In this document: positions 19,596-35,106 of the stretch, one piece after another
Numbering within the stretch: the first letter of the stretch is position 1
How the letters are laid out: every line of letters starts with the position of its first letter
Origin: Sulfurihydrogenibium sp.
Lineage (GTDB): Bacteria; Aquificota; Aquificia; Aquificales; Hydrogenothermaceae
Assembly (NCBI RefSeq): GCF_028276765.1
Contig: NZ_JAPYVU010000007.1
Span: forward strand, 1 to 47,617
Reading direction: 5' to 3'
DNA length: 47,617 nucleotides
Notes under the pieces: generated by a model
Seen by the model: the letters and a program-made list of their open reading frames with translations, nothing else
What the model was told of the DNA's origin: nothing
The model's database searches: none
Position numbers and translations under genes: made by a program

Positions 19596-19774
19596 TACCT
19601 TGGGTGAGAAATTAGCGGTTTTTATAAAATTTAAAAAATGAGATCCTTCGGCCTTACGGCCTCAGGATGACAAAGAAAGGTTGAATGATAAGAATCAGAA
19701 AAAAGGTAACCTTATTTGTCATTCTGCAGCCGGCGAAGAATCTCATACTTTTATTGAATTTCTCATCCGACGTA
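19596..19774. repeat. Family-2 MITE-like repeat, complete (179 bp)
   Basis: Ends are TACCTTGGGTGAGAAATT (left) and AATTTCTCATCCGACGTA (right), an inverted repeat. Between them lie GAGATCCTTCGGCCTTACGG...GGATGAC, the spacer AAAGGTTGAATGATAAG, and GTCATTCTGCAGCCGGCGAAGAATCTC written as its two halves. Core order is inverse-then-direct, the opposite of family 1. Confidence 0.75.
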
Positions 19775-19940: not shown

Positions 19941-20588
19941 TTATAATTTCTCAGCAGATATAACGACAAAACTTCCTTCGCCATATCCTTCTTTTGGCAT
20001 TTCTACTTCTTTAATTTCTTCTATTGGCTTAAAAATCGTCTGATAAAATTTAAAATTTCCAAAACCATATTTTTCTAACATTTTAACAATTTCATCGACA
20101 GAATAAAAATTAGCGTATTTATAGAACAAATGTCCTTGTTTTTTCTTTTCAAAATAAAACTGACCTAAAGGGCTATTTTTATCTATGATTCCAACAATTA
20201 GTCTTCCGCCAATTTTTAAAACTCTTTCAGCTTCTTTTATAACATTTTCAGGATTTTTTACAAAGCAAATTGTTATAACAATGGCTACAAAATCAAATTC
20301 TTCATCATTAAACGGTAATTTTTCACCGTAACCTAAAAACGTTTTAATCCCTCTTTTTTTAGCAATTTTTAACATTTCTTCCGATGGGTCTATTCCATAC
20401 TCAATGCCTAAAACTGCAGCAAATCTGCCTGTTCCTACTCCTATTTCAAGCCCTTTCTTACCATGAGGAATAGCTTTTTTAAGAGCTTCTACTTCAGAGA
20501 GATAGATATATTTGTTTTTCTCATACCATTCATCATAATTTTTAACATTTTTATTAAAGACTTCTTGAATTTCTAAACTATTTTCCAT
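19941..20588 (-). CDS. Class I SAM-dependent methyltransferase
   Basis: The 215-aa protein has motif I GLEIGVGTGRFAAVLG, the acidic strand end GIDPSEEMLKIAKKRG, motif IV-like FDFVAIVITICFVKNPENVIKE and the post-motif strand GGRLIVGIID. This is the UbiE/COQ5-like Methyltransf_11 layout. The substrate cannot be told from sequence. It follows the SSB-tail gene by 5 nt, so the pair is almost certainly cotranscribed. The stop lies 2 bp from a family-1 repeat. Confidence 0.85.
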   Translation of the reverse strand: MENSLEIQEVFNKNVKNYDEWYEKNKYIYLSEVEALKKAIPHGKKGLEIGVGTGRFAAVLGIEYGIDPSEEMLKIAKKRGIKTFLGYGEKLPFNDEEFDFVAIVITICFVKNPENVIKEAERVLKIGGRLIVGIIDKNSPLGQFYFEKKKQGHLFYKYANFYSVDEIVKMLEKYGFGNFKFYQTIFKPIEEIKEVEMPKEGYGEGSFVVISAEKL

Positions 20589-20593
20589 TTTTA

Positions 20594-21154
20594 TTAAAAA
20601 GGAATATCTTCATCATCAATATCATCAAGAGATTCAAAATCTATATCCTTATTATTTGCAAAATTAAAAATATCAGATAAAACTATTCCAGTACTTTGAT
20701 TTATTATATAGTACATCTTCTTACTTAATCTATCTATGGCATTTTTTAGCACATTAACTTCCTCTTTCTCTGCTTCACAGTCTTGAACTTTTACTTTTAT
20801 GTAGCTATCTCTGTAAAAACTATCTCCAAAAGATTGGATTTCATAAGAGTATATTTCCAATTTAATAAAAAACTCGTTTAAACAGTAGGATTCGTTCATT
20901 AATGCTGTTAAATGTTCAAGCTCTTTCTTTATTTTATTTTTCATTTCATTTGCGATCAGATCTATTAGTAAATATTCTTTTGTAGTTTTTATTTCCGTAA
21001 TTTCTATATCCAATTTATAATCATCATTTATGAATACTTTGTATTCTATGTCTATTTGGTCAAAATAGATTGAGTCTCTTGTTTTCAGTTGATTACCAAC
21101 ATCTTCTACAACAGATTTTTTTAGCATATCTTCTAAAATTTGATATTTACTCAT
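20594..21154 (-). CDS. Unknown protein with an SSB-like C-terminal tail
   Basis: I do not recognise the 186-aa protein. It starts after AAGGAGT and has a mixed alpha/beta pattern: a short helix, then strands KLDIEITEIKTTKEYLLIDL, a charged helix LIANEMKNKIKKELEHL, and strands ending YIKVKVQD. A low-complexity acidic C-terminus ends in DIDDEDIPF. That end is the tail by which bacterial SSB recruits repair and replication proteins (consensus DDDIPF with a free terminal Phe); the genuine SSB at 28705-29118 ends DEDVPF. No OB-fold is evident. It is the first gene of a pair with the methyltransferase at 19941. Composition matches neighbouring genes. Confidence 0.75.
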   Translation of the reverse strand: MSKYQILEDMLKKSVVEDVGNQLKTRDSIYFDQIDIEYKVFINDDYKLDIEITEIKTTKEYLLIDLIANEMKNKIKKELEHLTALMNESYCLNEFFIKLEIYSYEIQSFGDSFYRDSYIKVKVQDCEAEKEEVNVLKNAIDRLSKKMYYIINQSTGIVLSDIFNFANNKDIDFESLDDIDDEDIPF

Positions 21155-21232: not shown

Positions 21233-21303
21233 GAGAAATTCAATAAAAATATAAGATTCTTCGCCGGCTGCAGAATGACGATGTGGATTTGTGGAACACC
21301 CTC
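21233..21303. repeat. Chimeric repeat: family-2 side, one core, family-1 end
   Basis: One core unit (GATTCTTCGCCGGCTGCAG...AATGAC) is flanked on the left by the family-2 border (GAGAAATTCAATAAAA) and on the right by a family-1 terminus (GTGGAACACCCTC, ending 21303). The family-1 end is embedded in an IS-A remnant (21304 onward). Confidence 0.6.
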
Positions 21304-21554: not shown

Positions 21555-21570
21555 CTATGAGGAATTGAAA
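21555..21570 (+). repeat. Solitary 3' fragment of the CRISPR repeat
   Basis: CTATGAGGAATTGAAA is identical to bases 14-29 of the 30-bp repeat of the array at 46806-47234. It begins 2 bp after the terminus of the IS-A remnant and is followed by non-repeat sequence (21571 onward) of spacer-like character. No second repeat follows. A 16-nt match is unlikely by chance in this window. Confidence 0.6.
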
Positions 21571-26555: not shown

Positions 26556-27968
26556 TTAAAAATCTACTCCGTCTTCAGACTCTTCTATATATTCCTGCTC
26601 TTCTTCATAAATTTCTTCTTCTATATTATGACTTGTTTTAGCTAAATTTTCAAATTTAGTTATTTCTTTAATGAATGCTAAATGAACCGTGCCGGTTGGT
26701 CCGTTTCTTTGCTTTGCAATTATTATCTCCGCTAACCCTTCTTCTTGCGGCGAAGGATTTTTCTTATAATACTCAGGTCTATGTATGAATAAAACAAGGT
26801 CTGCGTCTTGCTCAATACTACCAGATTCTCTTAAGTCTGCAAGCTGTGGTCTTTTGTCTGCTCGCATTTCAGCTTGCCTTGAAAGCTGTGCCAAAGCTAC
26901 AACAGGAATTCCAAGCTCTTTTGCTAAAGCCTTTAGCCCTCTTGATATTTCTGCTACTTCTTGTTGTCTATTTTCTACTCTTCTATGGGAGCGAAGCAGT
27001 TGCAGATAATCAACAACGATTATCTTGACATCTTTTTCTTTTTTCAACCTTCTTGCCTTTGCTTTTAAATCTAAGATAGATAAAGAGGCAGTATCATCTA
27101 TATACAATGGCGCATTCATCATTTTTAATGCAACTTCTGTTAATTTCTCAATCTCACTTTCATTTAAAAATCCAGACCTTATTTTTTTAAGTGGAATTTT
27201 AGATTCTTCTCCAAGAAGTCTCATTGCAATTTGTTGTCTTGACATTTCTAATGAGAAAAATGCAGAGGGAACTTCATCTACAACGGATAGATGATGTAAA
27301 ATTGACAATGCAAAGCTTGTTTTTCCCATACCCGGTCTTGCAGCAATTATGACTAAATCACCCGGATGAAATCCGGTGGTTAATCTGTCTAAATCATAAA
27401 ATCCAGTTGGTATTCCTGTGACCACTGTTTCCTTTTTGGAAAGTTCATTGATTATTTTTAAAGTCTCTTTTAAAACTTCTCCAAGACTGTAATAATTTAC
27501 TACTTCTTTATTTTCTGTTACCTGAAAAATTATACTTTCCGCTTCCTCTAATAAACTGTTTATATCAGATTCTTTATTTTTTGCTTTGGCAATTATCTTT
27601 TGCGCAGATTCTATTAAAGACCTTAAAATGGATTTTTCTTTAATGATATCAACAATTTGAAATGCTATGTCAGGCGGAACACTTTCTTCGGAAATTTGGT
27701 ATAAATAACTTATTCCTCCTATGAATTCTAATTTTCCCTTTTTTTCTAATCCGTCTTTTAAGATGATCAATCCTAAGGATTTCCCTTGGTTGAATAAATC
27801 AATAATGGTCTCGTAAATGATTTTATGTTTTTGAAGATAAAAATCATCAATTTTTAGCTTAGTAAGGACTGAGTCAATGATTTCAGGATAAACGATTAAA
27901 CTTCCAAGGATTGCCCTTTCTGCATCTTCATCATAAGGCAAAAAGGGCAAATCCTTTAGAGTTTCCAT
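26556..27968 (-). CDS. dnaB: Replicative DNA helicase DnaB
   Basis: The 470-aa protein has the N-terminal domain (PYDEDAERAILGSLI at about 11-25) and the RecA-like domain with Walker A RPGMGKTS (211-218), Walker B KIIVVDYLQLL and the arginine-finger region RRVENRQQEVAEISRGLKALA. The motif DLRESGSIEQDADLVLFIHRPEYY is typical. It unwinds DNA at the fork. It follows rplI by 8 nt, as in many bacteria (rpsF-ssb-rpsR-rplI-dnaB), and precedes mlaE directly. The C-terminus is very acidic (EEEIYEEEQEYIEESEDGVDF as two short blocks). Confidence 0.97.
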   Translation of the reverse strand: METLKDLPFLPYDEDAERAILGSLIVYPEIIDSVLTKLKIDDFYLQKHKIIYETIIDLFNQGKSLGLIILKDGLEKKGKLEFIGGISYLYQISEESVPPDIAFQIVDIIKEKSILRSLIESAQKIIAKAKNKESDINSLLEEAESIIFQVTENKEVVNYYSLGEVLKETLKIINELSKKETVVTGIPTGFYDLDRLTTGFHPGDLVIIAARPGMGKTSFALSILHHLSVVDEVPSAFFSLEMSRQQIAMRLLGEESKIPLKKIRSGFLNESEIEKLTEVALKMMNAPLYIDDTASLSILDLKAKARRLKKEKDVKIIVVDYLQLLRSHRRVENRQQEVAEISRGLKALAKELGIPVVALAQLSRQAEMRADKRPQLADLRESGSIEQDADLVLFIHRPEYYKKNPSPQEEGLAEIIIAKQRNGPTGTVHLAFIKEITKFENLAKTSHNIEEEIYEEEQEYIEESEDGVDF

Positions 27969-28704: not shown

Positions 28705-29118
28705 TTAAAATGGTACATCCTCGTCTGATTCAAAATCTTCGAGCGGTATGTCAAGGTCTTCCTCTGTAGAGGTTGATTTAGCATTTCTATCGCCGGGCTT
28801 TCCAAGTAAGGCTATTCTATCTGCCACAATTTTTACCTTACTTCTTTTTTCGCCAGAAGATGATTCCCACCTATCCTGTCTTAATGAGCCTTCAATAAGA
28901 ATTTGATACCCTTTGCTAAGCTGAGATCCTACTCTTTCAGCAAGTTTTCCGTAACTTTCAATGTCAAAAAAGTAGCTCTCTTCTCTCCACTCTCCGCTTT
29001 TGTCTTTATATCTTCTATTTACAGCTATAGTAAGATTTGTTACCTGTACACCGCTTGGAAGAAACCTAACTTCCGGGTCCCTTGTAAGCCTTCCGATTAA
29101 CATGACCTTATTGAGCAT
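28705..29118 (-). CDS. ssb: Single-stranded DNA-binding protein
   Basis: The 137-aa OB-fold protein has MLNKVMLIGRLTRDPEVRFLPSGVQVTNLTIAVNRR and GYQILIEGSLRQDRWESSSGEKRSKVKIVAD, and a short linker leading to the acidic tip DEDVPF that binds partner proteins. The linker is shorter than in E. coli SSB (178 aa). It sits between rpsF and rpsR, its common location. A second protein with this kind of tail is encoded at 20594-21154. Confidence 0.97.
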   Translation of the reverse strand: MLNKVMLIGRLTRDPEVRFLPSGVQVTNLTIAVNRRYKDKSGEWREESYFFDIESYGKLAERVGSQLSKGYQILIEGSLRQDRWESSSGEKRSKVKIVADRIALLGKPGDRNAKSTSTEEDLDIPLEDFESDEDVPF

Positions 29119-32706: not shown

Positions 32707-35106
32707 TCAAGCAATGTTAACTAAATCGAATCTTTGACCGTACTTTTCAAATAGTATCTGCTTTAATTCTTTATGATTTTCAAGCTCTGGGTCTTTTTTT
32801 ATCAATTCTTCAGCTTCTTTTGTAGCTAATTCTAAGATTTCTTTATCTCTTGTTAAGTCGGCAATAGAAAAATCGCTTTCGCCGGATTGTCTTGTTCCTG
32901 TAATTTCTCCTGTTCCTCTAAGCTCTAAGTCTTTTTCTGCAATCTTAAACCCATCTGTTGTTTTTACAAGAATTTTTAATCTTTCTAAGGTTTTTAATCT
33001 TGATTTTTCTTTTGTACTATCTTTCAGTGGATATTTTAGATTAGCCGGGGCTACTAAAAAGCAGTAGCCTTCATACTGACCTCTTCCAATTCTACCTCTT
33101 AGCTGATGAATTTGAGAAAGTCCAAATCTATGAGCTTCTTCTATTACCATCACCGTTGCATTTGGAACATCTACACCAACTTCTATAACCGTTGTTGATA
33201 CAAGAATATAAGCTTTTCCTTCTTTAAACTGTTTCATTATCTCATCTTTTTCTTCTTGGCTCATTTTTCCATGAAGTAGTAAAACTTTTTTATCCGGGAA
33301 TCTTTCTTGCCAATGTTTGTAGCCTTCTTCAGCAGATTTTAGGTCTGATTTTTCTGATTCTTGGATTAATGGATAAACTACAAAGGCTTGTCTTCCTTTA
33401 TCAAGCTCTTGTTTTATAATTTCATACATTTTTTCTCTTTCGTCATCAAAAAGCAAAATTGTTTTTACGGGTTTTCTGCCTTTTGGAAGCTGGTCTAATT
33501 TAGATATATCTAAGTCTCCATAGTTTGCCAATGCTAAGGTTCTTGGAATTGGTGTTGCTGTCATTACTAATACATGGGGCATTTTGTCTGAACGTTCAAT
33601 CAATGCTTTTCTTTGCTCAACTCCAAACCTGTGCTGTTCGTCAACCACTGCCAAAGCTAAGTTTTTGAATTTTAATTTTTCTTCTAATAATGCATGGGTT
33701 CCGATTAAGATTTTTATCTCTCCAAGTTCTACCGCTTTGTATACCTGCTTCTTTTCTGAAGCTTTCATACTTCCTGTTAAAATAGCTATTTCATAATCTT
33801 TCAGATAATCTTTGAGAAAGTTTTTAAAATTATGATAATGCTGCCATGCAAGAATTTCTGTTGGTGCCATTACTGCAGCTTGGTAGCCGTTTAAAGCCGC
33901 TGCCAAAGATGCAGCCGCTGCTACAACCGTCTTACCACTTCCAACATCTCCTTGGACCATTCTATTCATCGGGATTTCTTTTTGTATATCCTCTAAAATC
34001 TCTTTTATGGTTCTAACCTGAGCTTGAGTTAGTTCAAAAGGTAGATTTTTTTGAAAGTTTTCTAAAAAGTTTGAATCTATCTTAATTTTATAGCTTGGAT
34101 GTTTTTGTAGTAAGTATCTTCTGTATTTTTGGGCAAGTTGCAATAAAAAAAGCTCATCGAAAATCAAACGCTTTTGATGTATATCTTGAAAGTTGTTTAA
34201 TAAATCTATATCAAAGCTGTCTTCTGGGAAATGGACATTTTTTATAGCTTTTGAAAGTGATGGAAAGTTATACTTACTTAATATATCATCAGGCATATAA
34301 TCTTTCACAGATGAGAATTTTTCTACAATCTTATACATTCCTCTTCTTAGATGGTTTAAAGTCTGTCCTGTTGTTTTTACAGAACTGTCTCCTCTTAAAG
34401 AGTAAACAGGTGCTATTCTATCTATAATATCTTCTACCGGCTCTAAAATCTCTGGCTGAATGATTGATATATTTTTATTAAAAAAGCTAACTTTTCCAAA
34501 TATTTTTACTTTTTTACCTTTTCTAAATGCTATGAAAAGATAAGGGCTTTCATGGGTGAAAAATGCTGAAAATCTTACATTGTCTTGTTTTAAAATGACC
34601 TCTACTTTTAACTTTCCTCTGCCAACTTTTTTTATATCCTCAACTTCTGCGATGAATGTTCCTGTTTCTCCGTCTTTGACTTTTAGTATTTTCTTTATTC
34701 TTCTGTCTTCATATCTGTTTGGAAGGTTAAAAAGAGCATCTCTTACATTGCTAACCTGGATTTTTTTAAAGGCTTTCTTTTCTGTAGCTAACAAAGATTG
34801 AAGTTTTTCAATGCTTAACTTTGCAAGCTGGACTAAATCAAACTTAGCTTCTTCTTGTTTTTGTGTAGTTTGTTTTTCATACTTTGATTTTACTTCTTCT
34901 AAAAAGTTTAAGACTATCTTTAAAAATTCTCTTTTTTTATTGACGTTTATATTATCAATGGATTTTAAATCTTCTTTTAATCCGGGAGTAAGAATATCGC
35001 CTACGTTTTCAAGTATAGCTTGGGATACTTTTACTCTTTCTAAAAGTTTATCGTTGTAAGATAAAACGGTTCTAATAATTTCAAGTGTTTTGTTGATTTT
35101 TTCCAT
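32707..35106 (-). CDS. recG: ATP-dependent DNA helicase RecG
   Basis: RecG remodels stalled forks and Holliday junctions. The 799-aa protein has an N-terminal helical extension (about 1-110), the wedge OB domain (SNVRDALFNLPNRYEDRR...), motif I GDVGSGKTVVA, Ia APTEILAWQHY, motif II VVDEQHRFGVEQR, III MTATPIPRTL, and motifs V/VI STTVIEVGVDVPNATVMV and QLRGRIGRG. It is about 100 residues longer than E. coli RecG (693) because of the N-terminal extension, as in Thermotoga-like thermophiles. The start lies within the last 26 nt of the upstream DUF1858-like gene. Confidence 0.97.
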   Translation of the reverse strand: MEKINKTLEIIRTVLSYNDKLLERVKVSQAILENVGDILTPGLKEDLKSIDNINVNKKREFLKIVLNFLEEVKSKYEKQTTQKQEEAKFDLVQLAKLSIEKLQSLLATEKKAFKKIQVSNVRDALFNLPNRYEDRRIKKILKVKDGETGTFIAEVEDIKKVGRGKLKVEVILKQDNVRFSAFFTHESPYLFIAFRKGKKVKIFGKVSFFNKNISIIQPEILEPVEDIIDRIAPVYSLRGDSSVKTTGQTLNHLRRGMYKIVEKFSSVKDYMPDDILSKYNFPSLSKAIKNVHFPEDSFDIDLLNNFQDIHQKRLIFDELFLLQLAQKYRRYLLQKHPSYKIKIDSNFLENFQKNLPFELTQAQVRTIKEILEDIQKEIPMNRMVQGDVGSGKTVVAAAASLAAALNGYQAAVMAPTEILAWQHYHNFKNFLKDYLKDYEIAILTGSMKASEKKQVYKAVELGEIKILIGTHALLEEKLKFKNLALAVVDEQHRFGVEQRKALIERSDKMPHVLVMTATPIPRTLALANYGDLDISKLDQLPKGRKPVKTILLFDDEREKMYEIIKQELDKGRQAFVVYPLIQESEKSDLKSAEEGYKHWQERFPDKKVLLLHGKMSQEEKDEIMKQFKEGKAYILVSTTVIEVGVDVPNATVMVIEEAHRFGLSQIHQLRGRIGRGQYEGYCFLVAPANLKYPLKDSTKEKSRLKTLERLKILVKTTDGFKIAEKDLELRGTGEITGTRQSGESDFSIADLTRDKEILELATKEAEELIKKDPELENHKELKQILFEKYGQRFDLVNIA

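Follow-up and report, generated by a model that had tools for sequence, protein, structure and literature searches.

Possible SSB-type docking tips on an orphan protein and on other non-SSB proteins of Aquificota

We tentatively propose that the C-terminal tip of an orphan protein from Sulfurihydrogenibium sp., which ends in DEDIPF, is a docking motif of the kind found at the C-terminus of SSB (SSB-Ct). The gene lies in a window of 47,617 nucleotides, which is the whole stretch of DNA that we analyzed, and its features are listed in Table 1. The chances of a docking tag and of a coincidence seem roughly even to us, with docking ahead by a narrow margin. The orphan's tip may dock weakly, or its likeness to SSB-Ct may be accidental. 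A preliminary description of this DNA had suggested that the protein, as a mimic of SSB's tail, could compete for SSB's partners or deliver them. This idea is partly supported: similar tips recur in the order, but the orphan's homologue has serine instead of the penultimate proline, and RecG from the window lacks the aligned arginines.

Table 1. Features of the window that bear on the orphan protein and its tip
Feature	Position	Strand	Evidence or remark
Left arm of the 47-nt inverted repeat (dispersed repeat) bracketing the pair	19718..19764	.	96% complementary to 21233-21279
Second of the paired genes, a class-I SAM methyltransferase (Methyltransf_11)	19941..20588	-	E = 2.5e-20; adjoins the orphan in both genomes
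Orphan gene, 186 aa, C-terminus ...DDIDDEDIPF then stop	20594..21154	-	ORF translation; purifying selection relative to the G004 copy; no known family
SSB-Ct-like tip DEDIPF (G004 homologue: DEDISF)	20597..20614	-	Sequence; six-frame pattern; comparison of the copies
C-terminal arm, residues 153-186, probably disordered, acidic at its end	20597..20698	-	pLDDT below 50; residues 170-184 the same in both copies
Predicted folded core, residues 33-150, beta-hairpin plus long helix, twice	20705..21058	-	AlphaFold2 from two sequences; pLDDT mostly about 60-80
Right arm of the 47-nt inverted repeat bracketing the pair	21233..21279	.	96% complementary to 19718-19764
Genuine SSB, ends ...DFESDEDVPF then stop	28705..29118	-	Translation
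RecG	32707..35106	-	37% identity to E. coli RecG; E, I and V aligned to R467, R474 and R614

The orphan gene and its tail

The orphan's reading frame ends with FESLDDIDDEDIPF and a stop codon. The window's genome (G000, 1.75 Mb) contains one copy, and another genome of the same genus (G004) contains a second (G004:C1:1243434-1243991), which is 90% identical over its full length with no gaps or stops. The codons of the two copies differ by 28 synonymous and 18 non-synonymous changes, and dN/dS is about 0.11 (NG86), 0.17 (YN00), or 0.24 (LWL85). Since dN/dS is about 0.11-0.25 overall, the orphan is, as judged from its two copies, a genuine and constrained protein-coding gene. Beyond the G004 copy, we found no homologues in genome contigs, viral contigs, phages, plasmids, or 136 genomes from the phylum, and there were no matches of credible score in Pfam, NCBIfam, PADLOC, PHROGs, or the sequences in PDB. 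By these searches, this is a lineage-specific and lineage-restricted gene. (Another 14 marginal profile matches in the phylum, with E from 8e-4 to 0.3, covered only parts of frames that were longer or interrupted, and we consider them noise. We also rejected phrog_1507, with E = 0.012, as the orphan's family: its matches in relatives were weak and mostly within frames of 660-880 amino acids.)

The preliminary description gave the tail as DEDIPF at a free C-terminus, and its coordinates, strand, and letters are exact. It also placed the orphan nearer to the consensus than the genuine SSB, which is correct: the orphan's tip is one letter away from DDDIPF, while the DEDVPF of the window's SSB is two letters away. 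We scanned the gene ends of the whole genome by using six-frame DNA patterns, and the pattern [DE][DE][hydrophobic]PF-stop had just two matches, at the ends of SSB and of the orphan. From an independent-residue composition and an assumed 1800 genes, 0.014-0.017 such protein ends are expected per genome. Across 61 related genomes, there were 140 six-frame matches ending in PF-stop among those listed, as compared to 50 for the swapped FP-stop, and much of this excess is due to SSB itself and to the two families that are described below. These numbers imply that the orphan's tip is unlikely to have arisen from composition alone, with the caveat that the tip was picked from among many possible features of the window and that an acidic tail was already present.

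The tail was not borrowed from ssb, as far as we can tell by inspection: beyond the tip, the identity across the last 17 residues is no more than their acidic composition gives. The tail of DnaB, the replicative helicase encoded elsewhere in the window (26556-27968), is also acidic and finishes with Phe (EEEQEYIEESEDGVDF, ending in ESEDGVDF).

The homologue in G004 keeps part of the tail. Its stop is at the same position, and all of the acids, the Ile, and the terminal Phe are retained. The penultimate residue (185) differs: a single base (CCT to TCT) turns the Pro of the window's protein into Ser in G004. Residues 170-184 are unchanged between the two copies and residues 162-169 differ at four positions. 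Given 18 changes across 186 residues, a run of 15 unchanged residues would occur by chance about one time in five. As we have two sequences, the conservation of the tail cannot be judged, and neither Pro nor Ser can be called ancestral. In E. coli, the same change from the penultimate Pro to Ser (SSB P176S, or ssb-113) leads to a temperature-sensitive phenotype (PMC10164576; also PMC4118853, PMC13220808). With this change, RecG binds the tip peptide 7-fold more weakly (23 instead of 3.1 uM), and removing the Phe weakens binding beyond 30 uM (PMC10164576). If the rules from E. coli apply, then the tip in G004 would be weakened.

We also predicted the orphan's structure with AlphaFold2. The resulting model, from two sequences, has low confidence (overall pLDDT of 59), and its core (about residues 33-150) has the topology beta-beta-alpha-beta-beta-alpha. 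The tip probably sits in a flexible arm, as pLDDT is below 50 for residues 153-186, although this is only an indirect sign of disorder. The preliminary description saw no evident OB fold, and our results agree: comparison to Pfam, NCBIfam, PHROGs, and PDB sequences gave no OB fold, and the model, which has low confidence, does not form an OB barrel. The sequence thus speaks against an OB fold, and so, to a weaker degree, does the model. A Foldseek search of the model against PDB and viral models gave no credible fold match; the best E was about 1e-3, but the query-normalized TM-scores were 0.12-0.37. We rejected matches to MHC/CD1-like proteins, as these reflect the resemblance of two helices on a sheet in a low-confidence model.

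Docking or coincidence

In our proposal, the orphan is small and cytosolic. Its folded core probably comprises two units of beta-hairpin plus helix, and its acidic arm is flexible. If the tip docks, then its terminal Phe would enter the hydrophobic pocket of a replication or repair protein that binds SSB. Basic residues would hold the carboxylate of the Phe, and the Asp and Glu residues of the tip would touch a basic ridge. The orphan would thereby be recruited to SSB-coated DNA, or would compete there, and the ISF tip in G004 would be a weakened form.

The preliminary description named RecG as a possible partner of the tail, which our analysis does not support. E. coli RecG holds the SSB tip via R467, R474, and R614 (PMC10164576). 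In a pairwise alignment, RecG from the window has E, I, and V in place of these arginines, with basic residues adjoining the first and the third, so RecG is a doubtful receptor.

Two other families of non-SSB proteins bear on the proposal. The first, of 155 amino acids (L163-L192; G037-G107), is present in 61 genomes, all from family f2; it has no relative in PDB and belongs to no family in Pfam or NCBIfam. Its C-terminus is DDDEIPF in most of 17 aligned sequences, and the variants include DDDEISF, EDDGIPF, DDDKTPF, and DDDEVPF, with ISF and TPF being rare; the linker ahead of the tip varies in sequence, but the tip is retained across genera. The second family, of 120 amino acids (L133-L162), is encoded adjacent to guaB and is present in 102 of the 136 genomes. 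Most of 15 aligned members, from g8, g3, g6, g4, and g2, end in EDDLPF or EDDMPF, as does the family in most genera of f1 besides the window's genus, and in two g5 genomes the protein ends in EDDISF or DDDISF. In the window's genus, this protein lacks the PF tip and ends in GENEEES or GDNEEEF (as in EGDNEEEF; the G000 copy is at C55:4238-4576). We chose the 17 and 15 sequences because their alignments reach the query's last residues, and the tip therefore looks more conserved in these samples than it is in either family as a whole. On the sequences compared, proteins other than SSB carry SSB-like tips repeatedly within the order. We also noticed a prophage-type DnaB in G013 (L086:56-1450) that ends in ETEDVPF, with a phage-like ssb adjoining it on the same contig.

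In the orphan and in both families, Pro is sometimes replaced by Ser while the acids and the Phe are retained. Because some members of both families have this Ser, ISF need not imply a loss of function. This softens the argument from G004, and docking by the orphan is still plausible. It is also conceivable, but in our view unlikely, that the Aquificota share a docking code, in which the orphan, the 155-aa proteins, and the 120-aa proteins all carry SSB-Ct-like tips, with IPF as the strong form and ISF as the weak form.

Several results support docking. The tip is exact and free, it is unique to the orphan and ssb in this genome, and few such ends are expected by chance. The gene is under purifying selection, and residues 170-184 of the arm did not change while residues 162-169 did. 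The low confidence of the model for the arm is as expected if the arm is flexible. Finally, two unrelated families of non-SSB proteins keep SSB-like tips across genera. Against docking, the only homologue has a Pro-to-Ser change at a position where this is weakening (with n = 2), RecG lacks the aligned arginines, the orphan has no DNA-linked operon neighbor, family, or fold, and the genus' own copy of the 120-aa family lacks the PF tip.

A coincidence, which we give about the same weight, would mean that the tail is a generic disordered acidic one, which serves for solubility or charge or binds the protein's own basic surface, that it ends in IPF or ISF by chance, and that it has no SSB receptor. 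The loss of the penultimate Pro in the sole homologue and the absence of a functional link to DNA repair would fit this explanation, as would the choice of this tail from among the many features of a 47-kb window. Also, other proteins nearby finish in acidic residues and a Phe without matching the SSB motif (ESEDGVDF in DnaB and EGDNEEEF in the genus' 120-aa protein). On the other hand, only about 0.015 such ends are expected per genome, the acids, Ile, and Phe are retained in both copies of the orphan, and PF-stop outnumbers FP-stop in the relatives, even if SSB accounts for much of that.

The methyltransferase gene and the locus

As the preliminary description reported, the orphan sits beside a methyltransferase gene, which starts 5 bp past the orphan's stop codon. 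The neighbor is a full member of Methyltransf_11 (PF08241; 73.3 bits, as compared to the curated cutoff of 21.2). The two genes are present in 2 of the 136 genomes from the phylum (2 of 7 from the genus), and are adjacent in both. The methyltransferase has orthologs in 68 of the 136 genomes, at E up to 1e-18, as well as in Methanocaldococcus. In the Aquificota and Methanocaldococcus loci that we examined outside of G000 and G004, the genes upstream of the methyltransferase are unrelated and the orphan is not beside it. Because the methyltransferase is widespread and its upstream genes are unrelated, adjacency tells us little about the orphan's function. We therefore do not support a function common to the two; they need not act together, and the methyltransferase is a small-molecule-type class-I enzyme. 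No DNA-metabolism gene neighbors the orphan in its operon. The nearest relative of the methyltransferase outside of Aquificota, from Methanocaldococcus sp. SG1 (L120:2151-3603), overlaps the end of a regulator gene. The overlapped gene presumably encodes a DNA-binding regulator, which looks ModE/LysR-like.

In G000, the genes that flank the pair are porin-like on one side and a short-chain dehydrogenase (SDR) gene on the other; in G004, they are lapA-like and serS genes, and the SDR gene is elsewhere. Given these different flanks, the pair has changed place. In G000, the inverted repeat around the pair is made up of small dispersed repeats, and its core motif occurs 15 times in the window (0.19 expected). 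Two abundant dispersed motifs, TTTTGGAACACCCTCA and GGCGAAGAATCTCA, have 11 and 15 sites in the window, often together between genes, and these repeats look MITE-like. The last half of a CRISPR repeat (ctatgaggaattgaaa, window positions 21555-21570) lies ahead of the SDR gene and abuts the right side of the pair. At the same place, ahead of the same gene, a close relative (G005, L063:3420-3660) has four CRISPR repeats (GTTATTAGCCTACCTATGAGGAATTGAAAC), so the array in the window was truncated next to dispersed repeats.

We considered whether the pair is a selfish or counter-defense cassette, an element that uses the tip to hijack replication or repair enzymes of its host, and we find this improbable. 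It would account for two adjacent genes that occur in few genomes of the genus and at differing loci, that lie within dispersed repeats in G000, and that abut the remnant of a CRISPR repeat there, at the site of a short array in G005. However, the pair has no match in the phage, plasmid, or viral collections and lacks an integrase or transposase, and the methyltransferase is common in the phylum (and present in Methanocaldococcus) with no orphan beside it in the loci we examined. No defense-specific PADLOC model matched either gene: the orphan had no match, and the methyltransferase matched only the methyltransferase part of mad2, which is a generic domain.

It is very improbable that the orphan's ORF has degenerated or does not code for protein, which would leave its tail meaningless: it has no family, no fold match, and occurs in two genomes only, but its full-length, gap-free identity to the G004 copy, its dN/dS, and the lack of stops all argue against this.

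Relation to SSB and to the other families

Work on SSB-Ct docking has so far dealt with it as something that only SSB does, and we found no description of a natural non-SSB protein that mimics SSB-Ct in the literature with open licenses. If docking is correct, then non-SSB proteins with the same free tip would be further molecules that compete for these pockets or serve as adaptors to them. With two sequences, the orphan is a weak case and a poor system for deciding between docking and coincidence. In the 155-aa and 120-aa families, the tip is largely conserved across dozens of genomes; they are better test cases, and the 155-aa proteins suit the purpose well. Both families are from the same order, and they make the docking idea directly testable by peptide binding.

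Like SSB-Ct (DDDIPF), the orphan has a flexible acidic arm, as predicted, with [DE][DE][DE][IV]PF at its free C-terminus. Unlike SSB, it has no OB fold by the comparisons above, its only homologue ends in ISF, and its docking partner is putative. The similarity to Methyltransf_11 and class-I SAM methyltransferases concerns the neighboring gene and not the orphan. The 155-aa family of Aquificota resembles the orphan in being non-SSB, in its SSB-like tip, and in the occasional change from Pro to Ser, but it is unrelated in sequence, and it keeps its tip across genera in 61 genomes despite a variable linker. The 120-aa family is likewise non-SSB with an SSB-like tip, and has Ser instead of Pro in the two g5 members; in contrast to the orphan, with which it shares no sequence relationship, it is found in 102 genomes and is missing its tip in the window's own genus.
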